Positions 3,080 to 15,691 of a stretch of DNA of 19,382 bases are shown one piece after another. Both the position numbers and the translations under genes were made by a program. The notes under the pieces are model-generated. The model made no database searches. It saw nothing but the letters and a program-made list of their open reading frames with translations, and was not told the origin of the DNA. Position 1 is the first letter of the stretch; each line of letters begins with the position of its first letter. Source of the stretch: Gallionella sp. (GTDB lineage: Bacteria > Pseudomonadota > Gammaproteobacteria > Burkholderiales > Gallionellaceae); assembly GCA_025362155.1 (NCBI GenBank), contig JANYHX010000081.1, positions 1 through 19,382 on the forward strand. The letters are read 5' to 3'.

Positions 3080-3730
3080 CTACAGTCCTGAAATGTAATC
3101 CGTCAATGACTCAATTTCAGCATCGGTCAAAGACTTGGCAATTTTGTTCATCACCCCGTCTGGGCTGTTACTGCGTTCGCCGCTACGCCAGTGGAGGAGC
3201 TGAGCGCGCAGATAACCCTTGTGCTGGCCGCCTGTCACCGGGTAGGTTGAAATGTTAGGCGCTTTGCCTTTGCCGTTTATTCCATGGCAACTTTCGCAAG
3301 CGGGAATACGCCTGCTTGCATCACCTTGCAGGAATAACTTCTTCGCGACCGGATTGTCTCCCTTGCCATTACCTTGCATCTTTTTCTGGCTGGCAAAATA
3401 AGCGGCAATATTGGTCAGCTCGGTATCGTTAATGGTCTTCGACATGGCACTCATGATCTGATGAGTGCGCGCCCCAGTCTGAAAGTTACGAAGTTGCTTG
3501 GCAATATAAGAAGCATATTGTCCGGCAAGATTGGGAATTAAATCCTCTGCACTGAGCCCCACTTCACCATGGCAGCCTTGGCAAAAATATGATGAGGTCT
3601 TGCCGAGGACTGGGTTGCCGCTGCCCATGCGCTGCTTGATCGCCTCGGGAGAATCAGTGGCATGTGCGGTAGTGAAAGCAAGGAGAGAAACTGAAATTAA
3701 ACAGCTAATGAATTTTTTCAAACAGCTCAT
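3080..3730 (-). CDS. Di-heme cytochrome c, c4/class I type
   Basis: A secreted electron-transfer protein of the cytochrome c4 type, two class I haem domains in tandem. The 216-residue product starts with a cleavable signal peptide (basic MSCLKK, hydrophobic core, cleavage near AHA-TD at residues 22-25). Haem-binding CQGCH is at 50-54 and CESCH at 145-149. Met94 or Met96 and Met194 (PDGVMNKIA) are plausible distal ligands. Each half ends with the class I helix (LTNIAAYFASQ; IESLTDYISGL). Such proteins usually pass electrons between the bc1 complex and terminal oxidases or periplasmic reductases. The gene is divergent from the DUF455 gene. It belongs to a different family from the DHC proteins farther right. 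The partner is unknown. Confidence 0.9.
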   Translation of the reverse strand: MSCLKKFISCLISVSLLAFTTAHATDSPEAIKQRMGSGNPVLGKTSSYFCQGCHGEVGLSAEDLIPNLAGQYASYIAKQLRNFQTGARTHQIMSAMSKTINDTELTNIAAYFASQKKMQGNGKGDNPVAKKLFLQGDASRRIPACESCHGINGKGKAPNISTYPVTGGQHKGYLRAQLLHWRSGERSNSPDGVMNKIAKSLTDAEIESLTDYISGL

Positions 3731-4754: not shown

Positions 4755-5963
4755 ATGAATGAAGTGATAACGGAGACCGATAAAACGACCCATCCTGGTT
4801 TGATAGCTACACCGCGCGTGGGCGACTATACCGGCATCCTTCCGAGTCAGAAGATTAAGGAGATGCTGAGTAACGGCGAGATCAAAACGCTGCTGGCAAA
4901 AATTGATGATGACCAAGTCCAGCCCGCCAGCATAGACCTGCGCCTTGGGGACTATGCCTATCCCGTAGATACGAGTTTTCTTCCCGGCAAGGGTATGAGA
5001 GTCCTCGATAAAATGAGGCAGCTTGATGCCCGGTTTGCTGATTTCAAAATAGATATCAGCAAAGGCGCTGTTCTGGAAAAAGGGCGGGTATATGTTATCC
5101 CTCTTATGGAATCCATCAATTTAAGAAGTGGCGTTGCTGCCTTCGCTAACCCTAAAAGCTCAACAGGAAGGCTGGATATTTTGACGCGCCTGATTGCCGA
5201 TGAAGCGAGCAGTTTTGACCAGGTAACAGAAGGTTATAAGGGCGATCTGTTTATAGAGATTGCGCCGCGAAGTTTCAGTGTAGTGGTAAAAACGGGCACC
5301 CGATTGAACCAGCTAAGATTTCGCCGCACACGAGGAGAGGGAGCGAAACCCATCACCGCCGCAGAATGGAAAAAGCTTCTTGATGACGGCCAGATTTTTG
5401 ATTCCAGTGACCACGAAACAAATGCAAAATCAATCAAATCAGGGGTTTTACCTTTCACTGTAGATTTGAAAGGCTCTGGTGGTGAAGGCAGCCTAATCGG
5501 CTATCGTTCGAAGAAACATGCCAAACGTATTGACCTGGAAAGGCGGGACTATGACCCGTTGGATTTCTGGGAGCCAATCCGTTTTCACAAAACGTCTTCA
5601 TTGATATTGGATCCTGATGAATTCTATATTCTCATGACGAAAGAAGCGATTGCAGTGCCGCCGGATTATGCGGCTGAGATGCTGCCGTATGACACCCGTG
5701 CAGGTGAATTCCGTGTCCATTATGCCGGTTTTTTTGATCCTGGATTCGGTTGGGATGCCAAAATAAATAGAGCGGGAAGCAGCAGGGGAGTTCTGGAAGT
5801 GCGCTCACACGAGGTACCCTTCCTGCTGGAGCATGGGCAGACAGTCGGATGGCTGCGCTATGAACGTATGGCAGCACGACCGGAGCTTTTGTACGGACAA
5901 GACATTAATTCTAACTATCAAGGACAGAGCCTTAAATTAGCCAAGCAGTTTAAGCAACTGTGA
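4755..5963 (+). CDS. 2'-deoxycytidine 5'-triphosphate deaminase, long two-domain form
   Basis: Deaminates dCTP to dUTP in the cytosol, feeding dTTP synthesis. The product is 402 residues, about twice the enterobacterial Dcd (about 190), and matches the long two-domain form of the DCD family. The N-terminal domain has QPASIDLRLGD (residues 56-66), the active-site segment NPKSSTGRLDI (132-142; Ser135/Ser136 and Arg139) and GDLFIEI with Glu168 as the likely catalytic base. The second domain (about 230-402) repeats the beta fold (DYAAEMLPYDTRAGEFRVHY; FFDPGFGWDAK; GQTVGWLRYERM) but has no second copy of the SSTGR motif, so it is probably structural or regulatory. AAGAG at about 8 bases supports the ATG at 4755. 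The gene is convergent with hslR. Confidence 0.88.
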   Translation: MNEVITETDKTTHPGLIATPRVGDYTGILPSQKIKEMLSNGEIKTLLAKIDDDQVQPASIDLRLGDYAYPVDTSFLPGKGMRVLDKMRQLDARFADFKIDISKGAVLEKGRVYVIPLMESINLRSGVAAFANPKSSTGRLDILTRLIADEASSFDQVTEGYKGDLFIEIAPRSFSVVVKTGTRLNQLRFRRTRGEGAKPITAAEWKKLLDDGQIFDSSDHETNAKSIKSGVLPFTVDLKGSGGEGSLIGYRSKKHAKRIDLERRDYDPLDFWEPIRFHKTSSLILDPDEFYILMTKEAIAVPPDYAAEMLPYDTRAGEFRVHYAGFFDPGFGWDAKINRAGSSRGVLEVRSHEVPFLLEHGQTVGWLRYERMAARPELLYGQDINSNYQGQSLKLAKQFKQL

Positions 5964-5994
5964 AGTTATATTAGCTTAGCACTCTTGTTTATAC

Positions 5995-6408
5995 CTACCA
6001 TTCTCCATTGCCTTTCCTCGTTTGCTTGAAATGCTCAATCTCGCGCCGATCACGTTTGGTAGGCCTGCCCTTGAAATGAAAGGGTTGCGGGTCAGTTTTA
6101 AGTTGGGCAATGATCACTTCACGGCGCTGACGGCTTTCGTCGGTCTCACGATATAGTTTCTGCGCTTCGGGTGCGGGTCCGCGTTTATTGGAGAGTGCCA
6201 GTACCTCCACGAGGTACTGATAACTTCCAACTTGGATGCTTAACAGGTCTCCCACGGTCAACGATTTGGCAGGCTTGACACGTTCATTCCTGACCTGCAC
6301 TTTACCGCTCTCAATGGCGCTGATTGCCAGCGAGCGTGTTTTGAAAAAGCGCGCCGCCCACAGCCATTTATCAATGCGGAATTTTTCTGTGTGCTTATCT
6401 GTAGTCAT
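5995..6408 (-). CDS. hslR: S4-domain RNA-binding heat shock protein Hsp15 (HslR)
   Basis: Hsp15 binds free 50S ribosomal subunits that carry a nascent chain and helps recycle them after heat shock. The 137-residue product has an N-terminal S4 RNA-binding domain (about residues 9-68: RIDKWLWAARFFKTRSLA, ESGKVQVRNERVKPAKSL) and a basic C-terminal tail (PQPFHFKGRPTKRDRREIEHF), close to the length of E. coli Hsp15. I chose the ATG at 6408 (MTTDKHTEKFRIDKWLW). An upstream frame to 6450 adds 14 unrelated residues and runs into the neighbouring pseudogene. In several betaproteobacteria this gene sits beside hemH and grpE; here it is about 7 kb from hrcA-hemH. No clear Shine-Dalgarno is visible. Confidence 0.9.
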   Translation of the reverse strand: MTTDKHTEKFRIDKWLWAARFFKTRSLAISAIESGKVQVRNERVKPAKSLTVGDLLSIQVGSYQYLVEVLALSNKRGPAPEAQKLYRETDESRQRREVIIAQLKTDPQPFHFKGRPTKRDRREIEHFKQTRKGNGEW

Positions 6409-6446
6409 TTTGATTGAATGCAAATTTACACATTTTAAATGTCTTA

Positions 6447-6775
6447 TCAACGGCCATGGCCCGGGAAATATTCATGGCCATGCGAAACATCGCCGGTAGT
6501 TTTCATCCAGTTATTTATGAAGGCGGATTGCATTTGCGCGACTGTCGGGCGATGCGGAAGTGGAAGTCACGCCAATGATTTTTATCCTGCGCATGACCGA
6601 GCCAGTATCTGCAATGCCCACACCGCCGGTAAAGCTGATTTTTCTGTCTACAATCAATAATTTTCGGTGGGTGCGATTATTCAGTCGAGCCAGGTTAACC
6701 GGTACGGCACTAGGCCCAAGCAAATTTCCCATGGAGCGCAAAAAATGCGGCTCACATCGCGACCTTAGTCTTTTA
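6447..6775 (-). pseudogene. Remnant of a phospholipase D / cardiolipin synthase-type gene
   Basis: Three short pieces in different frames read as one stretch of a bacterial cardiolipin synthase. Piece one, ending near 6607, gives LARLNNRTHRKLLIVD and FTGGVGIAD; its HRKLLIVD is an HKD catalytic motif (6646-6669). After a frameshift near 6603-6607 the sequence continues WLGHAQDKNHWRDFHFRI. After another disruption near 6544-6553 it continues VAQMQSAFINNWMKTTGDV and HGHEYFPGHGR, then a stop at 6447. Only about 100 residues of a protein normally over 380 survive. The N-terminal part and the second HKD motif are missing, so it cannot be functional. The right edge is approximate because homology fades toward the DUF5062-like gene. 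Confidence 0.8.
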
Positions 6776-6784
6776 CGGGGGTAT

Positions 6785-7048
6785 TTATTTCGACAGCAGC
6801 GGATGATCTGCGGGTAATTGTTTTGCGTACCAGAGTGCAAGTTTATGCCGTAAGGTTTTTTCGGCAACCTGATCTTCAGGCAAGGGCTGAATGACTTTGT
6901 CATGGGCCAGCAGGCGGTAGATGTATAACAGCTTCTCGCTGGCGGAATCAGTGGCTTCAAATTCCACCACGCCGCGCCCCTCGGCATATTTGACGCCTGC
7001 GATTAACGCTGCCTTGAATAATTCTGCTTCATGTTTTAATTTTTTCAT
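6785..7048 (-). CDS. DUF5062-type small protein
   Basis: An 87-residue soluble, mostly helical protein of unknown function. The start MKKLKHEAELFKAAL, the central KLLYIYRLLAHDKVIQPL and the end LRHKLALWYAKQLPADHPLL resemble the DUF5062 family known mainly from gammaproteobacteria; this assignment is from memory of the family pattern. GAGGA lies 5 bases before the ATG at 7048, supporting translation. The gene begins 11 bp after the stop of the Kef-type antiporter on the same strand, so the two are likely co-transcribed. No signal peptide or membrane segment is visible. Confidence 0.65.
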   Translation of the reverse strand: MKKLKHEAELFKAALIAGVKYAEGRGVVEFEATDSASEKLLYIYRLLAHDKVIQPLPEDQVAEKTLRHKLALWYAKQLPADHPLLSK

Positions 7049-7059
7049 CGCGGTCCTCG

Positions 7060-8853
7060 TTATTGTTTGGCATCCAAATCCTCATTCAAAAGATTAATCG
7101 TGTCTGCTTCAAATAACGATTTCAGTTGTTCTGAGGCTTGCTGTGAATTTTGAATGAGCTGAGCCTCATCAGAATGAACCGCATGCTGCACCTCTATCAA
7201 TTCTTCATCGTGTTTCCTGAACAGCGCAACGGCACGCGCTGCGGCGGGCGCGGCAAAACCCATTTTCTCCAGCGCCTGTTGCGCGACGGCGATACTGGAC
7301 AAAAATGTCTCGCGATAAATCATCTTGACACCCAGGTCGCGCAACTGAAAATAGTGTGCTCTGTTGCGCGCCCGCGCCACGATGGGCAAGTCGGGGAAAT
7401 GTTGACGAACCAGCGCAGCCGTTTTCAGTGATGCGGCGACATCATCAATGGCGAGCACAAAAAGTTTGGCCTCAGCGGTCTTGGCGGCCAATAACAAATC
7501 AAGGCGGGTCGCATCGCCAAAATAAATCTTGTTGCCAAAACGGCGCACGAAATCTACTTGCTGATAATTCACCTCCAGTGCGGTAAATGGTATGCCGCAC
7601 ATTCTTAATACACGCGAAACAACCTGCCCGACACGTCCGAAGCCGGCGATGATTACCGGGTTGCCGGGTCCGTCTATCACATCATACTCAGGTGTGCTTT
7701 TGCGCTCAAGCCAGCGCGTGCTCATGCGCTCGTGCGCGATCATAACCACGGGCGCGAGCAGCATCGAAATGGTCACTGCCATAACCAACAGCTGTGAGGT
7801 GTGAATGTCGAATATGCCCAAACCGGTTGCGGCGGCAAACAGCACAAAAGCAAACTCACCACCCTGCGCAAGCGCCACTGCAAGGCTTTGGGCAGTATTA
7901 TTGGGCGTGCCGGTGGTGCGAGAAATTGCATACATCACGGCAAACTTGACCAGCATCATCCCCAGCGCCAATCCAAATAAAGTAAGAGGTGCATTCCACA
8001 GCAGCGTAAGGTTGGCGCTCATGCCCACGGCCATGAAGAACAGACCGAGCAACAGGCCTTTGAATGGCTCAATGTCAGCTTCAAGTTCGTGGCGAAACTC
8101 AGAATCTGCCAGCAAAACGCCGGCCAGAAATGCGCCCAGCGACATGGACAAACCGATTTTTTCCATAATCAGCGCTGTACCTATCACCAGCAGCAACGCA
8201 GCAGCGGTAAAAACTTCCTGGCTGCGGTTGTGCGCAATAAATTTGAGCAAAGGGCGGATAACCAGCCTACTACCGGCGATCAGCACCGCGATGACAATCA
8301 CGCCTTTGGAGACCCCCAGCCATTGGCTTTCGCTATGCACTGTTACCGGAGCCAGCAACGGTAACAGCGCGAGCAGCGGAATCACCGCCAGGTCTTGAAA
8401 CAATAATATTGCAAACGACTCTCTGCCATGGCGGGTCAATAATTGTTTGCGCTCGGTTAAAAAGGACATGACCAGTGCCGTGGATGACATCGCACAGCCC
8501 AGCCCGATGATCAAAGCCGCCTGCCAGTTAAAACCTGCGGCTATGGCAAGCGATGCCACCACCAAGCCCGTCGCCATTACCTGCGCGCTGCCCAGCCCGA
8601 AAACTGAATTGCGTAAAGTCCATAATCGCCGTGGCTCCAATTCCAGACCAATGAGAAACAGCAATAGCACGACGCCGAATTCGGAAAATTCCAGCGTAGA
8701 TTCGACGGCACCAATGACACCCAGCCCCCCTGGCCCAATGATCATGCCCGCCGCCAGATAGCCAAGCACCGCCCCAAGTTTCAGGCGCTGAAAAATGGGC
8801 ACGATAAGAACTGCCGTAAGCAGAAAAATCGCGACTTGTTCGAGCAGGTGCAT
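7060..8853 (-). CDS. KefB/KefC-type monovalent cation:proton antiporter (CPA2 family)
   Basis: An inner-membrane K+ (or Na+)/H+ antiporter. The product is 597 residues. About the first 380 form a CPA2 Na+/H+ exchanger domain of some 12 membrane helices, with LGYLAAGMIIGP near the start, FLIGLELEPRRLW, MSLGAFLAGVLLADSEF and AQGGEFAFVLFAA. The last ~200 residues are a cytosolic RCK/TrkA-N domain with the Rossmann motif IIAGFGRVGQVV, followed by FGDATR and ARARNR, as in the KefB/KefC nucleotide-binding domain. I chose the ATG at 8853 (MHLLEQVAIFLL) with AAGG upstream; a TTG at 8862 would sit on top of that site. Whether it is gated by glutathione adducts like E. coli KefB/C cannot be told. It is followed by the DUF5062-like gene, not by a KefF/KefG-type ancillary gene. 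Confidence 0.93.
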   Translation of the reverse strand: MHLLEQVAIFLLTAVLIVPIFQRLKLGAVLGYLAAGMIIGPGGLGVIGAVESTLEFSEFGVVLLLFLIGLELEPRRLWTLRNSVFGLGSAQVMATGLVVASLAIAAGFNWQAALIIGLGCAMSSTALVMSFLTERKQLLTRHGRESFAILLFQDLAVIPLLALLPLLAPVTVHSESQWLGVSKGVIVIAVLIAGSRLVIRPLLKFIAHNRSQEVFTAAALLLVIGTALIMEKIGLSMSLGAFLAGVLLADSEFRHELEADIEPFKGLLLGLFFMAVGMSANLTLLWNAPLTLFGLALGMMLVKFAVMYAISRTTGTPNNTAQSLAVALAQGGEFAFVLFAAATGLGIFDIHTSQLLVMAVTISMLLAPVVMIAHERMSTRWLERKSTPEYDVIDGPGNPVIIAGFGRVGQVVSRVLRMCGIPFTALEVNYQQVDFVRRFGNKIYFGDATRLDLLLAAKTAEAKLFVLAIDDVAASLKTAALVRQHFPDLPIVARARNRAHYFQLRDLGVKMIYRETFLSSIAVAQQALEKMGFAAPAAARAVALFRKHDEELIEVQHAVHSDEAQLIQNSQQASEQLKSLFEADTINLLNEDLDAKQ

Positions 8854-8917
8854 AGCGATCAAACCTTAAATCTAGAATCAACACTCGGGCAAATTAATTA
8901 ACCTAGAAACCGCACCC

Positions 8918-10387
8918 TTAAGAAGAAGCTGATGTATGTGAACGATCTGGGTAGGCGCGCTTGAATGCTTCCACAATGTCGGGATCAAATTGCTGGCCTG
9001 CTGCCTCTTGCAGGCGACGCATTGCTTCCTCGTCTGGCATTCCCTTGCGGTAAGGACGGTCGGCGGTCATAGCATCAAAGGCATCGGCTACTGCAAGGAT
9101 GCGTGCAGCCAATGGAATTTCCGTCCCGCGCAAACTGTCGGGATAGCCTTGACCGTTGTACCATTCATGGTGATGACGTATAGCGGGAATAAACTCGCGA
9201 AACAGGTGCATTTTGGAAAGGATTTGGGCGCCATCATCTGGGTGATGTTTGACGATGACATATTCTTCTTCAGTCAGTCTGCCGGCCTTATTGAGTATGG
9301 AGGACGGCACACCGATTTTACCAATGTCATGCAACAACCCCACTATTTTTAACCCCGCCAGTTGCTGCTCGTTCCAGCCCAGGGCTTTACCTATCATAAG
9401 CGCATAGTTTGTGACCCGTTTAGAGTGGCCAGCCGTCCACGGTGATTTTTTCTCTACCGTTTCTGCCATGCCTAGTACGGTTTCCTCTGTTTGGTTCCGA
9501 AGGCGCGAGAACAGACGGCCTAGCTCTGTGGAGATGCCTATCATATTTACCATGGCCACGCACAATGCAATCTTGCGATCATTCAGTGGATCACGTTCGC
9601 TCGACCTGAATTCGCCAAAAATAGCCATGCCCTGCGCCCGCTCCTTATGCACAATAGGAATGCACAGGACATTCGTTTCCTGGTCGCCAAACAGCAATGC
9701 CGATTCGCTGGCGCTTAAATTATCGCATCGCTGCAGCAGGCCGAATTGCTTGCTGTGCATGAAGCCCCATAACAGGGGGCATTGTTCTTCCGTCACTTGG
9801 GTTAGTAGGGATTGCACCTGGGGGAGATTTCTTACCGAATGAACCGCTCGCACCTCGAGTTTTGTGGCGGACATATCTAATATCGCAATGCGGCACCAGG
9901 TCACTTTGGCTGAATCAGCGAGAGACTTTACAAACTGCTGAAGTATTTCCTGTTCAGTGGCGGACGAGTTCAACAATTGGCTCATTTCCACCAGCTTGGC
10001 CAATTCCATTGTCTGCTCGCGTATAGAATTGTCTTGGCGGCGCAGCAGGACCTGGACTTGCCCGGTCATGTTATTAAATGCGCTAACGACGGTGCTGATT
10101 TCCTGGCCATAAGCCTGTTCAACCGGTTGGCTGAAATCTCCCGCAGCCAAACGCTGGGTACCAGCGCGGAGCCCGAGCAAAGGCTGAAAAATAAATTTAT
10201 TTCCGAACCAAGCCAGTGCGGCCAGGATTAGAAGTTCGCTGCCCGTCAGGAACGGCTGCAAAGCCGTGTTGCGGCTCAGCCAATAATCTATGCCCAGCAT
10301 CAAGCCCAGCAGCAGAATCAAGAATGCCATTAGCAGACGGATATTAATGCTCACCTCCCAAGTACTCTTTAATGCTGGATGAAACAT
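8918..10387 (-). CDS. Membrane-bound HAMP-GAF-HD-GYP protein, probable c-di-GMP phosphodiesterase
   Basis: Predicted to hydrolyse cyclic di-GMP at the inner membrane. In the 489-residue form from the ATG at 10387, two membrane helices (about 17-35 and 48-62) are joined by only about a dozen residues, leaving almost no periplasmic sensor. A HAMP linker follows (about 65-115), then a short coiled coil, a GAF domain (about 145-290) with several Cys (165, 203, 221, 242, 276), and an HD-GYP domain (about 300-480). Catalytic motifs are intact: HDIGKIG with His353/Asp354, HHHEWYNGQGYP with GYP at 414-416, and ADAFDAMTADRPYR. The start is unsure: ATG 10387 has no Shine-Dalgarno, while GGGAGGTG at 10352-10359 precedes or overlaps a GTG at 10354 and an ATT at 10348. 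The gene ends the SHP/DHC cytochrome cluster. Confidence 0.88.
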   Translation of the reverse strand: MFHPALKSTWEVSINIRLLMAFLILLLGLMLGIDYWLSRNTALQPFLTGSELLILAALAWFGNKFIFQPLLGLRAGTQRLAAGDFSQPVEQAYGQEISTVVSAFNNMTGQVQVLLRRQDNSIREQTMELAKLVEMSQLLNSSATEQEILQQFVKSLADSAKVTWCRIAILDMSATKLEVRAVHSVRNLPQVQSLLTQVTEEQCPLLWGFMHSKQFGLLQRCDNLSASESALLFGDQETNVLCIPIVHKERAQGMAIFGEFRSSERDPLNDRKIALCVAMVNMIGISTELGRLFSRLRNQTEETVLGMAETVEKKSPWTAGHSKRVTNYALMIGKALGWNEQQLAGLKIVGLLHDIGKIGVPSSILNKAGRLTEEEYVIVKHHPDDGAQILSKMHLFREFIPAIRHHHEWYNGQGYPDSLRGTEIPLAARILAVADAFDAMTADRPYRKGMPDEEAMRRLQEAAGQQFDPDIVEAFKRAYPDRSHTSASS

Positions 10388-10529
10388 AGCCGGTAAAAAC
10401 AACCCAAAACAGCAGCCCTAACAGTAGCACAGTAATTAGGCCCAGCAATTTATGGTAATTAGGCGAAACGTAACCAAAATTAATTATCCCAATTTGAATA
10501 GTTCGGAATGGACGCCGTATCCACATCAT
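10344..10529 (-). CDS. Candidate 61-residue single-helix membrane protein
   Basis: A short frame of unknown function between the second DHC gene and the HD-GYP gene. It reads MMWIRRPFRTIQIG, then YHKLLG and one clear membrane helix (LITVLLLGLLFWVVFTGYV), with a polar tail ending EYLGGEH. AGGG lies 5 bases before the ATG at 10529. It overlaps the 3' end of the DHC gene by about 50 bp and the 5' region of the HD-GYP gene, which suggests translational coupling if it is real. I recognise no family; it could be a small accessory subunit of the neighbouring cytochromes. It could also be noncoding, since the overlaps leave only about 90 bases of its own. Confidence 0.4.
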   Translation of the reverse strand: MMWIRRPFRTIQIGIINFGYVSPNYHKLLGLITVLLLGLLFWVVFTGYVSSSIKEYLGGEH

Positions 10530-11043
10530 AGACACCCTGTGCGGCTTGGGTATGACACTTGTCGCAAAAGCTTAGCGACTTTACCCCCTTATTGCCCTTG
10601 ACCATTTTTTCGGGGATATCATTGTGTTTGCGGGAGATGTAACGCAGCTCGGTGATACGCAAGGGTGTAGGGCCATCCGTCGTGGCCACGGCGATTTTGC
10701 GTGAGCGTTTGTACCATGATTTATCTGCTGCGTTGTCCACTGCATAATCATGAATGACCTTCAACGTGGCATCGTCGAGTTCGGCATTGACACCGAAATG
10801 TTTGCGCAACGCGTCCGGAGTCAGCAGCGCTTCCCAGGATTTGGCCGGTAACAAACCGGGTTGATAGGCGAAGTGACATCCACTGCATTCATCTTGATAT
10901 TGTTTGTCGGTGACCGGCTTCACTCCTTTGGTTCTGGAAAAATTAAACAGCCAAAAAATAAAATCCTCTTCCGCGCCTGCATATGCACTATTCAATGCCA
11001 GAGTGACCGCTAATAATGCGGCTTCCCATTTCCTTTGCATCAT
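10480..11043 (-). CDS. Di-heme cytochrome c, DHC family (second copy)
   Basis: A periplasmic di-heme cytochrome of the DHC family, partners of SHP. The 187-residue product has a signal peptide (MMQRKWEAALLAVTLALNSAYA). The first haem site is CSGCH at 53-57 in the family context ECSGCHFAYQPGLLPAKSW; the second is CDKCH at 160-164. His82 (KHFG) and His140 (RKHND) are candidate distal ligands for bis-His haems. It resembles the DHC at 12411-12896 but is longer, with an extra N-terminal stretch (DFIFWLFNFSRTKGVKPVT) and a different tail (SIPNYSNWDN). GGAG lies 4-7 bases before the ATGs at 11043/11040. It starts 9 bp after the four-helix membrane protein, implying co-expression. Confidence 0.9.
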   Translation of the reverse strand: MMQRKWEAALLAVTLALNSAYAGAEEDFIFWLFNFSRTKGVKPVTDKQYQDECSGCHFAYQPGLLPAKSWEALLTPDALRKHFGVNAELDDATLKVIHDYAVDNAADKSWYKRSRKIAVATTDGPTPLRITELRYISRKHNDIPEKMVKGNKGVKSLSFCDKCHTQAAQGVYDVDTASIPNYSNWDN

Positions 11044-11052
11044 CTCACTCCA

Positions 11053-11709
11053 TTACCAGGTCATTTTAATCGCCACAACCATAGCCGCTGCGCCTAATTC
11101 AGCAATACCTGAATGGTTTACCGGCACGGTGGAATGGGCGGAAGCATTTACTGCATAAAGCATGAGTAGTGCACCTGCCGCTGCCAGCCTCGCATGCATT
11201 TTATCCGGGTCGAAAAAACTGTCTTCCCAATGAATGTCGTTCCAGTGAACCACCAGTCCGGTCATTACTGTGGCTATGGCCATCGCAGCAGTCGCGCGTG
11301 CCAGCCTGGTGTGAGTGGTACCGGACGTCTGACGGGGCTGCTGCTGTGAAGCGGTTGTGCAGTTGTCACAACCTTCCCCTGGCGCGGCCAACACCGTCAG
11401 GCCTGCTAACACCACGGTCCCCAAACCCAAATATTGGTGAGTCTTTCTGCCTGATATCCACGGAGGGTGAAATTCCGTAGCAGGTAGGGTTATATCCGCC
11501 TGTCCCTGGATGACATCGGCCTCATTCGCTGCCAACAGGTAGACCGGAGAATTAAAGGATAAGGATTTTAATGACTGGGAATTATGGGTATAAAAACTGG
11601 CGGCAGTCGGTAGATCAAGATTCACACTATCATCTGCGTACACCATTCCGGATAAAGCCGCCAAGAAAATACCCGCGATAGTATTTCTAAACTCAATCCT
11701 GCATTTCAT
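11053..11709 (-). CDS. Four-helix membrane protein with conserved-looking His residues, possible b-type haem subunit
   Basis: I do not recognise a named family. The 218-residue product has a signal-like N-terminus (RNTIAGIFLAALSGMVYA), about 60 soluble residues, and four membrane helices at about 92-109, 136-155, 173-190 and 201-216. Histidines sit at helix ends: His91 (KTHQYLG), His133 (THTRLAR), His155 and His160 (VVHWNDIHW), His172 (MHARLAAAG), His192 (AHS) and His199 (NHSG). This layout suggests a cytochrome b561-like protein that could hold one or two b haems; that is inference. A CDNC pair (Cys114/Cys117) lies in the loop after helix 1 and could bind metal or be redox-active. It lies between the cytochrome b561 gene and the second DHC in the same operon. 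Confidence 0.75.
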   Translation of the reverse strand: MKCRIEFRNTIAGIFLAALSGMVYADDSVNLDLPTAASFYTHNSQSLKSLSFNSPVYLLAANEADVIQGQADITLPATEFHPPWISGRKTHQYLGLGTVVLAGLTVLAAPGEGCDNCTTASQQQPRQTSGTTHTRLARATAAMAIATVMTGLVVHWNDIHWEDSFFDPDKMHARLAAAGALLMLYAVNASAHSTVPVNHSGIAELGAAAMVVAIKMTW

Positions 11710-11777
11710 TTCTTAAAAGCCCCCTTTAAGCTACTTTTTTTGTTCCGCTGTACGGCAGGTTTATCTGCCCACTAGCA

Positions 11778-12398
11778 TTAGCCCAGCGGTTTCTTGACAT
11801 AAGCGAACCAGAATATGACAACTGCGACCAACATCAACACGCCGAGCCAATTATAGGCGCGCTGAATACCTTGCCCCGATTCAGCGGATTTAAACCCGGT
11901 GAGCATGGAACGCAGCAGATTCTCACGATGCAAAATACTGCTGATCAGCACGCCGATGAGGTGCAGCACTATCACGCCCAGCATGATATAGGTCGCCGCC
12001 CCATGCAGATCACCCACGACATCGCTGGCATCATCTTGTAGCGCCATCACGCCAGTCACGCAAATAAATATTCCCAGCCCCAACAGCATCCAGACCGACA
12101 CACTTCCCGCCGGATTATGTCCCAGATAATGTTGCGGTTTGCCTTTGATCAAGGTGAGTAAATATATAACGATTTCCCTAGGGTTGAACAGGAAGGAGCG
12201 AAACCGTGCATAGCGTGTGCCGGTAAAACCCCACAGCAAGCGAAACACCAGCAAGCCCAGCAGGATATAGCCCAATGCCACATGATAATTGCGCAGACGT
12301 TCCGAGTCTGCCGTCAGATAGGCCGCGACAAAGGCCAGCACCTGTAACCAGTGAAACATTCGTGTGGGCGCGTCCCAAACCAAAATACGTCGTAGCAT
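11778..12398 (-). CDS. Cytochrome b561-family membrane protein
   Basis: An inner-membrane di-haem b-type cytochrome of the prokaryotic cytochrome b561 / Ni-Fe hydrogenase b-subunit family. It is likely to take electrons from quinol and pass them to periplasmic cytochromes. The 206-residue product begins LVWDAPTRMFHWLQV, the family signature with His16. Helices lie at about 15-30, 38-57, 101-120, 134-154 and 183-200. His39 (YHVALGY), His132 (DLHGAATY) and His146 (LHLIGV) are further probable haem ligands, along with HNPAGSVSVWML in the 90s. AAGG sits 6 bases before the ATG at 12398. It begins 12 bp after the first DHC gene. SHP, DHC and this cytochrome b family are known to be encoded together. 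Confidence 0.92.
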   Translation of the reverse strand: MLRRILVWDAPTRMFHWLQVLAFVAAYLTADSERLRNYHVALGYILLGLLVFRLLWGFTGTRYARFRSFLFNPREIVIYLLTLIKGKPQHYLGHNPAGSVSVWMLLGLGIFICVTGVMALQDDASDVVGDLHGAATYIMLGVIVLHLIGVLISSILHRENLLRSMLTGFKSAESGQGIQRAYNWLGVLMLVAVVIFWFAYVKKPLG

Positions 12399-12410
12399 GA
12401 TGCGCCTTTT

Positions 12411-12896
12411 CTACTTGGGTATTTTTACATCGTCTTCGTTGAAATCCCCGCTCTCCGCCTTGGTGTGGCACGCGCCGCAATTGGCCGGACTCTTGACCTT
12501 GGGGTTTTTCCAGACGCTAGTAGACACTTCGCTGTGTTCGGACTTGAACGAACGGGTTTCGGTGATGCGCAACAGTGGCTTGCCCGATGCATTATATTTT
12601 TTGGCGCTGGCATTTTTTTCCAGAAAGGCCGTAATCTCACTGGCGGAGGCGGCATCCAAGCTGGCATCGCTGCCAAAATGCTTGTCCAGCCCTGACATGA
12701 TCGCGCGCCATGATTCGGCAGGTAACATGCCCGGCGGATAGGCTACGTGGCAGGCACTGCACTCACTCTTCCACCTGGCATTGTCGGCCGTGCGCTTCTG
12801 GCCATCATGATCGTCAGCTTGCGCAACAGAAAGCGTCGCGCTCATCGCCAGCGCGACAGCGACATTTCGGGTGAAATTTTTTATATGGAATAGCAT
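12411..12896 (-). CDS. Di-heme cytochrome c, DHC family
   Basis: Probable electron donor to the SHP cytochrome encoded just upstream. The 161-residue product has a signal peptide (cleavage near AQA-DD at about 27-28). Haem sites are CSACH at 46-50, in the family context ECSACHVAYPPGMLPAESW, and CGACH at 140-144. His73 (KHFG) and His121 (SEHSEV) are candidate distal ligands. LRITETRSFKSEH is shared with the second DHC (LRITELRYISRKH), so the two are paralogues. AGGAG lies 6 bases before the ATG at 12896. It starts 9 bp after the SHP gene and is followed 12 bp later by the cytochrome b gene. Confidence 0.93.
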   Translation of the reverse strand: MLFHIKNFTRNVAVALAMSATLSVAQADDHDGQKRTADNARWKSECSACHVAYPPGMLPAESWRAIMSGLDKHFGSDASLDAASASEITAFLEKNASAKKYNASGKPLLRITETRSFKSEHSEVSTSVWKNPKVKSPANCGACHTKAESGDFNEDDVKIPK

Positions 12897-12905
12897 GATA
12901 GTCTC

Positions 12906-13325
12906 CTATTTGTGTATGGTGAGCAGGTAAGTAATCACGTCACCCTTCTCTTGTGCCGTGCATTCACGATCAAGCACATCGTTACAATTGCGCTTGAACC
13001 ATTTAGCTACTTTTTTCATATCGGTGAATCGTTCTTCATTGGCCGCCGGAGCGAGCGGCTTGATGATCTTGTCAGTCTCGGAATGTTTTCCCTGCGCGGC
13101 AGGGTTGTCGGTATGGCAAGTGGAGCAACTCAAATTGTGATTATGTTTGGTCTTGAAAAAATTCTCCCCGCGCGTGGCCGAGAATTCCTGAAATCCCGGC
13201 GTGCCCGCTGCTTCAACTTTAAAAGTAGCCAATACCTCGATGGGTGTTTCCGCAAATGCCGATTGTATCGGTAGCTCGGCAATCAACATCAGTACCGAAC
13301 CTAATGTAAAAATTACGCGCAACAT
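12906..13325 (-). CDS. SHP-type (DUF1924) monoheme cytochrome c
   Basis: Homologue of sphaeroides haem protein, a high-spin class I-like cytochrome whose Asn haem ligand is released on reduction so that O2 or NO can bind. The 139-residue product has a signal peptide ending near AFA-ET (residue 25), haem site CSTCH at 67-71, the family stretch TDNPAAQGKHS, then IKPLAPAANEERFTD and KWFKRNCNDVL. An Asn in RNCN (113 or 115) is the expected distal ligand. Cys114 and Cys122 match the conserved disulfide pair. AAGG lies 6 bases before the ATG at 13325. It is the first gene of the minus-strand cytochrome cluster, reading away from hrcA. The 227-bp gap to hrcA must hold its promoter, which I could not define. 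Confidence 0.92.
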   Translation of the reverse strand: MLRVIFTLGSVLMLIAELPIQSAFAETPIEVLATFKVEAAGTPGFQEFSATRGENFFKTKHNHNLSCSTCHTDNPAAQGKHSETDKIIKPLAPAANEERFTDMKKVAKWFKRNCNDVLDRECTAQEKGDVITYLLTIHK

Positions 13326-13517
13326 AAGTGACCTTTAAAAATAATGCTTCATTGAGTAGTTTGTAAGATAGAAGTTCGGTCTAGATAATAATTTATGATG
13401 CGTACACTTCGCTGGTTTTGTGTTAGGAGCGCCGCCTCACGGGAAGGACATACGAATGATTTTATCGCCCGCGAGCGCAATATCCCGGATTTGCACAGCT
13501 CGTGATTGTAAAGCCGG

Positions 13518-13545
13518 TTGAGCGGCGCAGCGTCAATGGTAGAAT
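13518..13545 (+). promoter_or_regulatory. Candidate sigma-70 promoter of hrcA, apparently leaderless
   Basis: TTGAGC (13518-13523) and TAGAAT (13540-13545) are separated by 16 bp and match -35 and -10 consensus at 4/6 and 5/6. The hrcA ATG at 13553 begins 7 bases after the -10 box, where a transcript would normally start, and no Shine-Dalgarno precedes it. No CIRCE palindrome is seen here. The rest of 13326-13552 shows no gene. Confidence 0.45.
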
Positions 13546-13552
13546 CTCTCCT

Positions 13553-14572
13553 ATGCTCAACGACCGCGCACAAATCCTGCTCAAGACTTTGGTGGAACGC
13601 TACATCAGCGAAGGTCAGCCAGTCGGCTCGCGGGCGCTCCTTCAATATTCCGGGCTGGAAGTCAGCTCGGCGACTATCCGCAACGTCATGTCCGAACTGG
13701 AAGACATAGGCTTGGTAAGCAGCCCGCATACCTCGGCAGGCCGCATTCCCACTGGCTTGGCGTATCGTTTGTTCATTGACACCATGCTCGTCACCAAACC
13801 GCTGGACAGCGTGAGCATGCAGCAGATGGAAAATAAATTACAGCCGGACAATCCGTCGCGGCTGATCGCCCAGGCTTCCAATATCCTCTCCGAACTGACC
13901 CACTTCACCGGCGTGGTCGCCACCGCGAGACGCAGCGCAATCACTGTGCGCCAGATCGAATTTTTACGCTTGGGCGAAAAGCGCGTGTTGCTCATCATCG
14001 TGATGCCAGATGGCGAAGTGGAGAATCGTGTACTGTTGCTGGAGCGCGATTACACCCAATCGCAACTCACCGAGGCGGGCAACTTTCTTAACCAGAATTA
14101 TATTGGTTGCAGCTTCTCGCAAATTCGTGACCGGCTGCGTGGAGAATTGCAACAACTGCATCAGGACATGAGCGCGCTGATGACAGCAGCACTGGCCGCA
14201 GGCGATGCCGCGCAAGCAAAGCAATCCGAAGACTATGTGATTAGCGGCGAACACAATTTGTTGCATGTGGCCGATCTGTCCACCGACATGAACTGCTTGC
14301 GCGGATTGTTTAATTTATTCGAACAGAAAACCGAGCTGTTGCAACTGCTGGATGCTGCCCGCCGCGGGCAAGGCATTCATATCTTTGTCGGCAGTGAATC
14401 CGGCCTGGCATCGCTAGACGAATGCAGCGTGATCACCGCGCCCTACTCTGCCGACGGCAAAGTGGTAGGTACGCTCGCCGTAGTTGGTCCGAAGCGCATG
14501 GATTACGAGCGTGTCATTCCTATTGTGGACATCACCGCGCGCTTGTTGGGCAATGCGCTTTCGCAAAACTAA
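13553..14572 (+). CDS. hrcA: Heat-inducible transcription repressor HrcA
   Basis: HrcA represses chaperone genes by binding CIRCE operators, with its own folding depending on GroEL. The 339-residue product has an N-terminal winged helix ([48 protein letters not shown]) and the GAF-like dimerisation domain typical of the family. The C-terminus reads [19 protein letters not shown] and [22 protein letters not shown], as in other HrcA proteins. The ATG at 13553 gives the canonical N-terminus; an upstream GTG at 13502 adds 17 unrelated residues. It is followed by hemH after 30 bp. No complete CIRCE element is seen in this window, so its targets (grpE/dnaK, groESL) lie elsewhere. Confidence 0.95.
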
Positions 14573-14602
14573 ATTTTCTAATATTAACTAACAGGATTAT
14601 TT

Positions 14603-15691
14603 ATGGCCTACCAGATTGAACCCTCTATCCCTCACGGCACACCCGCCAAGACCGGCATCCTGCTGGTCAACCTCGGTACACCTGATGCGCCCACTGCCGC
14701 AGCCGTACACCCTTATCTCAAGGAATTTCTGAGCGACCCACGCGTCGTGGAGATACCCAAGTTTATCTGGTGGCTGATTTTGAATGGCGTCATCCTTAAT
14801 ACTCGCCCGAAAAAATCTGCCGCAAAATATGCATCGATATGGATGAAAGAAGGTTCGCCATTGCGCGTTTACACTGAAAAACAGACTTTGCTATTGCAAG
14901 GTTATTTGGGTGATCGCACCAGAGCACCTTTCGTGGTGGACTACGCAATGAGCTACGGCAATCCCTCCATCGCCCTCGCAATGAAAAAACTCAAGGAGCA
15001 AAATTGCCAGCGCATTTTGATTGTGCCGATGTATCCGCAATATGCCTCCAGCTCGACAGGTACCGTGTTTGATCTGGTATTCCGGGCATTACAAAAAATG
15101 CGCAGTGTTCCCGCCGTGCGTACCGTCCGGAATTTTCACGACAACTACGGCTATATCAAAGCACTGGCGAACAATATCAATGACTACTGGATGAAACATG
15201 GCCGCCCCGAAAAACTGGTTATGAGCTTTCACGGTGTGCCGCAATACACCTTGGAAAAAGGCGATTTTTACCATTGCGAGTGCCACAAAACGGGACGCCT
15301 GCTGGCACAGGAACTTGGCTTGAGTCCTGAGCAATACGCGATCAGTTTCCAATCGCGCTTTGGCAAAGCAGAGTGGATTAAACCCTATACCACCGCCACC
15401 CTGCTCGAACTCGGCAAACAAAAAACCAAACGCGTGGACGTGGTCTGCCCTGGTTTTGTCGCCGATTGTTTAGAGACACTGGAAGAAATTGCGATGGAAG
15501 GCAAGGAAGATTTTCAGCACGCCGGCGGCGGCGAATACCACTACATTCCTTGCCTCAATGAGCGCGGTGACTGGATACTCGCGCTGACCAATCTGGTATT
15601 GGATAATTTGCAGGGCTGGCTGATCGAGGCGAATGCAGGAGAACTGGAACAAGGCAGGCTGCGTGCGCTGGCGATGGGGGCGAAAAAATGA
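14603..15691 (+). CDS. hemH: Ferrochelatase
   Basis: Inserts Fe2+ into protoporphyrin IX in the last step of haem b synthesis, at the membrane or in the cytosol. The 362-residue product shows [14 protein letters not shown] near the N-terminus, EGSPL, the [13 protein letters not shown] loop, SFHGVP with the metal-handling His210, and [17 protein letters not shown] with the conserved Glu. AGGA lies about 8 bases before the ATG at 14603. The hrcA-hemH order is common in betaproteobacteria, where the S4-domain gene and grpE often follow. Here hemH instead meets a convergent VOC gene. The product is relevant to the many haem proteins encoded to the left. HCECH (224-228) is not a haem-attachment motif. 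Confidence 0.96.

Follow-up and report, generated by a model that had tools for sequence, protein, structure and literature searches.

Gene content of the locus

The DNA analysed here (the window) is a stretch of 19,382 nucleotides from Gallionella sp. (contig JANYHX010000081.1, assembly GCA_025362155.1). On its minus strand it carries genes for a sphaeroides heme protein (SHP), two dihaem cytochromes c (DHC1 and DHC2), a cytochrome b and a four-helix protein, followed by the gene of an HD-GYP protein. Judged from the sequence, the cytochrome-related genes are a variant of the ircABCD cluster, in which DHC2 corresponds to IrcA, SHP to IrcB, the four-helix protein to IrcC and the cytochrome b to IrcD. 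The seven same-strand frames of the initial annotation were confirmed in position and spacing. The gaps in the order from SHP to HD-GYP are 9, 12, 68, 9, −56 and −11 bp, the 68-bp gap preceding the four-helix gene as annotated.

12906..13325, minus strand: SHP (DUF1924), in the IrcB position; monohaem cytochrome c with one CxxCH, Asn113 at the sixth-ligand position, and Cys114/Cys122
12411..12896, minus strand: DHC1, a dihaem cytochrome c (two CxxCH) like those of classic SHP operons
11778..12398, minus strand: b561-type cytochrome b in the IrcD position, of the classic SHP-operon clade
11053..11709, minus strand: IrcC-type protein with four predicted helices and invariant His 91, 133, 155, 172 and 199
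10480..11043, minus strand: DHC2, IrcA-type dihaem cytochrome c with two CxxCH
10344..10535, minus strand: small hydrophobic frame that is unlikely to be a gene and may be a remnant of the 3′ end of a ubiB gene
8918..10354 from GTG (TTG at 10402 possible), minus strand: HAMP-(GAF)-HD-GYP protein, a lineage-specific neighbour

Pfam matches above the cut-off were DUF1924 (SHP), DHC (both dihaem cytochromes), Ni_hydr_CYTB (cytochrome b) and HD_5, HD and HAMP (HD-GYP protein). By sequence, SHP is related to 1dw0 and to cytochrome c″ 1e8e, DHC to 2fw5 and 3u99, and the HD-GYP protein to 5z7c and 4mcw. SHP combines DUF1924 with a single CxxCH, and both DHC1 and DHC2 combine PF09626 with two CxxCH. 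Asn113 of the window SHP aligns with Asn88 of 1dw0, the SHP of R. sphaeroides (numbering counted from the alignment), which we take to be the sixth ligand of the haem; His stands in that column of 1e8e. The conserved Cys114 and Cys122 follow the Asn, so that the residue positions are those expected of an Asn-then-disulfide SHP. Asn occupies the sixth-ligand position in 82 of the 83 SHPs of irc-type clusters, the remaining one being a contig-end fragment (12 loci lack SHP), and in 27/27 classic SHPs. Asn as the sixth ligand of SHP, an N88D variant and a proposed electron route from quinol through cytochrome b and DHC to SHP are described for this family in PMC2909971, which also lists SHP operons in Mariprofundus and Leptothrix (Meyer et al. 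2010). The earlier reading, in which SHP, DHC and cytochrome b act together in electron transfer as a single unit, is supported by this family literature and by gene order and sequence. The small frame at 10344–10535 was listed in the initial annotation as a tiny membrane frame; apart from the self-match, a search of 158 genomes of the family gave two short matches of 28 and 21 residues (E ~0.007), which leaves it unsupported as a gene.

Relationship to the irc clusters and spread of the module

In PMC8788666, Slit_1321 (cytochrome b), Slit_1322 (hypothetical), Slit_1323 (monohaem), Slit_1324 (dihaem) and Slit_1325 (heat shock protein) are given as upregulated with Fe(II), and Gallionella ES-2 and Mariprofundus PV-1 are mentioned as having homologues. 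Slit_1321-1324 carry the name irc in PMC12442390, where IrcA is described as dihaem, IrcB as monohaem, IrcC as hypothetical and IrcD as b-type, the genes as upregulated when Sideroxydans cells can oxidise iron, and ircA and ircB as homologues of grcJ and grcI of Ghiorsea. According to PMC10734462, the irc genes are co-located and present in 50 Gallionellaceae genomes. IrcB is not called SHP in the accessible parts of the irc papers examined (mostly open-access literature), the main text of PMC12442390 does not contain the word “sphaeroides”, and none of the papers found with “sphaeroides heme protein” in the same, mostly open-access literature is an irc paper by its title. The initial annotation recognised the SHP–DHC–cytochrome b unit itself and overlooked its kinship with irc, whose steady partners are IrcC and the second DHC (IrcA).

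By the rule used in PMC12442390 (three or more irc genes in a 20-kb span at E < 1e-10, from BLAST with CL21 queries), the window, searched here with phmmer, counts as an irc locus. Against the canonical cluster L032, phmmer gave E values of 6e-34 for SHP, 7e-42 for cytochrome b, 3e-60 for IrcC and 8e-83 for DHC2. The window shares with ircABCD of Sideroxydans ES-1 and CL21 a cluster of IrcC and IrcA relatives, an SHP-family monohaem cytochrome c and a b-type cytochrome. It differs in gene order, which is SHP–DHC1–cytochrome b–IrcC–IrcA in the window and IrcD–IrcC–IrcB–IrcA in Sideroxydans, and in the extra DHC1. Moreover, its SHP and cytochrome b do not belong to the canonical clade of IrcB and IrcD. 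They fall into the classic SHP-operon clade, and the window is thus an irc variant and not a plain member.

Single-sequence search detected IrcC in 27 of 60 genomes sampled from the family and profile search in 73/158; across the class it was present in 14/369 genomes, where the loci had flanks of ~1.5 kb or less; the window's own genome is included in each count. The best 80 of 94 confirmed IrcC loci came mostly from Gallionella, Sideroxydans and other Gallionellaceae, the remainder from Nitrosomonadales, Ghiorsea and other Zetaproteobacteria, and a few were named only Proteobacteria, Betaproteobacteria, Gammaproteobacteria or Pseudomonadales. For counts of gene order, 124 IrcC-bearing loci were collapsed to 95 distinct clusters on the basis of identity over the last 120 residues, the window not being counted. 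DHC2 was clustered with IrcC in 88 of them, and five of the seven misses reach a contig end. The other two (L052:7498-8157 and L054:3372-3977) are solitary ircC genes without DHC2 in genomes that hold another ircC copy. The commonest order was cytochrome b–IrcC–SHP–DHC2 (49/95). The order of the window, SHP–DHC1–cytochrome b–IrcC–DHC2, was found in 13/95, and six further clusters have its four-gene form without DHC1, which indicates that the join of an SHP operon to ircC–ircA is common to several lineages and has been kept. SHP, DHC1, cytochrome b, IrcC and DHC2 form one conserved module. A further order, ircC–SHP–DHC2, occurs in Ghiorsea, Mariprofundaceae and other Zetaproteobacteria (L160, L161, L164, L166, L168, L169 and L171), in loci without a match to the window cytochrome b, some of them on short contigs.

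Origin of the SHP and cytochrome b genes

The SHP tree (108 rows) placed the window and its order-mates among 49 rows (27 of them classic, the other 22 of mixed order) and all 59 canonical and out-group irc rows on the other side of the branch (support 96). The cytochrome b tree (94 rows) grouped the window and its order-mates with stand-alone SHP operons in 42 rows (support 99), and a single clade of the canonical and out-group irc rows was not rejected (p-AU, from the approximately unbiased test, 0.67). Both were quick trees with many open forks, built from clusters of the main orders with sufficiently long genes. The placements indicate that IrcC and IrcA are kept in Gallionella, but that its SHP and cytochrome b are those of the classic SHP-operon type. 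The Gallionella cluster is therefore best described as a chimera, an arrangement that may already show in supplementary figures of the irc papers. In the IrcC tree (96 rows, midpoint-rooted, likewise a quick tree with many open forks), the gene order of the window did not form one clade.

The classic SHP operon as described in PMC2909971 has in common with the window an SHP with the Asn position, a DHC, a cytochrome b and tight spacing, whereas IrcC and the second, IrcA-type DHC are additions of the window. The majority of classic operons are reported to come with a sensor kinase or response regulator (PMC2909971), and neither was seen among the scanned window genes beside the module.

The IrcC protein

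His 91, 133, 155, 172 and 199 are invariant among 62 IrcC sequences. The structural model (mean predicted local distance difference test score, pLDDT, 78; blocks within helices mostly at least 90) has four confident helices, 87–107, 132–158, 168–191 and 200–217, and the five His stand at or near the ends of predicted membrane helices. Helix counting would put His 91, 155 and 172 on one side of the membrane and His 133 and 199 on the other; if the signal peptide is cleaved, the side with His 91, 155 and 172 would be periplasmic. This predicted arrangement is compatible with two b haems; alternatively, the conserved acidic loop of residues 155–172 could harbour a metal site. With its five fixed His, a protein until now annotated as hypothetical can be given a specific prediction, the binding of haem b.

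The HD-GYP gene and its neighbourhood

The HD-GYP protein carries the motifs HDIGK and HHEWYNGQGYP and is, by these HD and GYP motifs, a predicted phosphodiesterase. GTG at 10354 is a likelier start than TTG at 10402, since the alignment with a 90%-identical relative begins only at residue 17. Close relatives (E ≤ 1e-70, best nine or fewer candidates per genome scored) were found in 3/158 family genomes, namely its own, G498 (90% identity) and G017 (49% over residues 58–484), and at E ≤ 1e-90 its own genome was alone among the 369 of the class sample (best four or fewer candidates scored). All three proteins share HAMP, the HD-GYP core and the HDIGK and GYP motifs. The G017 protein is of the HAMP-GAF-HD-GYP type and has a longer periplasmic part with CxxCH, in contrast to those of G498 and the window, which lack this part; in the latter, the initial annotation had noted almost no periplasmic domain. 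The GAF domain which it had also assigned gave no Pfam match in the window protein at E ≤ 0.1 and is deduced from the GAF of the G017 relative. The periplasmic part of the G017 protein (L190:6423-8273) is a possible c-haem sensor and gave no Pfam match at E ≤ 0.001. In G498 (83% complete), the gene comes after one with an ABC1 (UbiB-type) kinase domain, and this genome is not among the 73/158 with IrcC; the absence of the domain is therefore not linked to the cytochromes.

The initial annotation had suggested that the HD-GYP protein could be the output of the module, a reading it tied to the gene being adjacent in relatives that keep the cytochrome genes. Among the 77 other clusters with at least 800 bp of downstream sequence, none has a c-di-GMP (cyclic di-GMP) gene directly downstream on the same strand. 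This is the outcome that the initial annotation had named as refuting its reading, and the HD-GYP protein as output of the module is not supported. Opposite-strand c-di-GMP genes lie within 3 kb downstream in five clusters. The only HD-GYP gene within that distance belongs to L052, where it lies 2.1 kb from the solitary ircC and on the opposite strand. In L092, L098 and L138, NAD kinase and RecN genes follow DHC2, with DUF455 or cytochrome c genes in two of them, whereas in the window ~5.7 kb with the HD-GYP, KefC-like, dCTP deaminase-like and other genes lie between DHC2 and the NAD kinase–RecN block:

4755..10479: lineage-specific stretch from the dCTP deaminase-like gene to the small frame, missing at that place in L092, L098 and L138

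The remaining syntenic relatives have variable genes after DHC2, none with HD-GYP there. The HD-GYP gene is thus a lineage-specific neighbour and not a part of the conserved module.

GGDEF genes upstream of irc clusters

Enzymes of c-di-GMP turnover do occur beside irc clusters, in an arrangement other than the one initially described. Of 85 irc clusters, 16 have a GGDEF(-EAL) gene directly upstream, on the same strand and within 300 bp, as against 0/25 classic SHP operons. The counts cover loci with at least 800 bp upstream (for the controls, the 25 of 27 classic loci with enough flank) and genes detected, as in the downstream count, by phmmer with single domains at E ≤ 1e-4, which divergent ones may escape. 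The pattern lends weak independent support to the looser idea of c-di-GMP enzymes next to the module; 15 of the 16 clusters lie in one 16-row clade and L165 apart. The loci are L037, L042, L051, L053, L116, L117, L123, L127, L128, L132, L137, L142, L147, L150, L156 and L165. Within the clade, the upstream proteins are of MHYT-PAS (L037), phosphonate-binding-PAS (L042), PAS array (L051, L117), PAS (L123) and HAMP-GGDEF (L142) types; outside it, L165 has a cNMP-binding GGDEF protein. N-terminal grouping of 13 of the 16 proteins gave six groups at E 1e-20 (five without L165), and at E 1e-3 11 of the 13 merged, probably via shared PAS parts. The slot may be either an old signalling island that was reshuffled or a slot under selection. 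This pattern does not make the HD-GYP gene a part of the module. That irc/SHP clusters are repeatedly tied to c-di-GMP turnover, through the exchanged upstream GGDEF genes, the cNMP-binding GGDEF of L165 and the downstream HD-GYP of the window, seems to us improbable. If it were true, the surface or stalk lifestyle of the cells would be governed by an iron/O2 electron path, through its state or its expression.

Interpretation of the cluster

We consider it probable that the genes at 10480–13325 are the Gallionella version of irc, in which a classic SHP–DHC–cytochrome b operon has been joined to ircC–ircA, replacing ircB and ircD, and that the HD-GYP gene came to lie downstream as a lineage-specific newcomer. 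The reading builds on direct observations of gene content and order, of motifs, and of linkage and clade membership. The b561 cytochrome, with IrcC as a second b-type cytochrome, would form a quinone-linked membrane path in electron exchange with the two dihaem cytochromes of the periplasm; the O2- or NO (nitric oxide)-reactive end would be SHP. In iron oxidisers the electrons might run from quinol to SHP, as proposed in the SHP literature, or, as the irc papers suggest, inward from carriers derived from Fe(II). Coupling to the HD-GYP protein, if there is any, would most simply be by read-through transcription.

Several points weigh against this reading. The evidence of induction stems from Sideroxydans and not from the chimeric Gallionella cluster, and the proteins of Slit_1321-1324 are reported in PMC12016527 as detected comparably in all proteomic samples, so that not every data set shows induction. 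That IrcC binds haem is a prediction, and structure comparison gave only generic helical-bundle matches, with no known fold clearly matched and no clear structural relative. One out-group irc row stands inside the classic set of the cytochrome b tree, which also includes the mostly empty row L176 (26% filled). Finally, no terminator-like site was found in the 125 bp between DHC2 and the HD-GYP gene, so that one transcript is possible, and the HD-GYP protein is the only HD_5 match in its genome (88% complete, with 20 GGDEF matches over the cut-off). Co-expression with the module in this organism is therefore plausible.

These last two observations and the 125-bp gap are also what speaks for coupling by co-transcription only, by which iron- or O2-dependent expression of the operon would raise the only HD-GYP enzyme of the genome. 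We regard this as possible but doubtful, as the arrangement is present in one genome only and a promoter of a type outside the scan could sit in the 125 bp. That the HD-GYP protein is a true signalling output, with the redox or gas state of the haems passed through the membrane to the phosphodiesterase, is very unlikely. The shared strand, the short gap with no terminator-like site found, the CxxCH which the G017 relative has in its own periplasmic part and the window protein lacks, and the upstream GGDEF genes of irc clusters would fit it, but the 77 other clusters without such a downstream gene and the G498 relative, which likewise lacks that periplasmic part, stands beside a ubiB-like gene and belongs to a genome outside the IrcC set, argue against it. 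The cluster could also be a classic SHP operon that serves to detoxify NO/O2, has no connection with iron oxidation and lies next to ircC–ircA by chance. The clade of its SHP and cytochrome b and the NO dioxygenase activity reported for the SHP of R. sphaeroides (PMC2909971) agree with that, but chance adjacency is hard to reconcile with the recurrence of the five-gene order and its four-gene form, and we judge it unlikely.

With the irc genes read as proposed, IrcB being an SHP and IrcA a DHC, a known redox and gas chemistry is at hand to test for both. The natural swaps of SHP and cytochrome b, with IrcC and IrcA kept, single out the latter pair for study and suggest that it makes the better marker.

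Flanking genes

13502..15691, plus strand: HrcA and ferrochelatase genes, divergent from the module; upstream neighbours in 11 of the 13 same-order clusters

An Hsp33 gene was not found in the window (best tblastn E 0.15). Among loci with at least 2 kb downstream, Hsp33 is present in 1/13 window-order clusters versus 25/38 canonical ones. This redox chaperone gene occurs in 26 of 71 such irc loci, 25 of them of canonical order (e.g. L034:9239-10120). Directly behind the HD-GYP gene, within the lineage-specific stretch, lies a gene for a KefC-like potassium/proton antiporter (7060–8862). A cytochrome c protein like PdsA (below the cut-off) is encoded at 3080–3730 and adjoins the DUF455 gene in the same synteny block.

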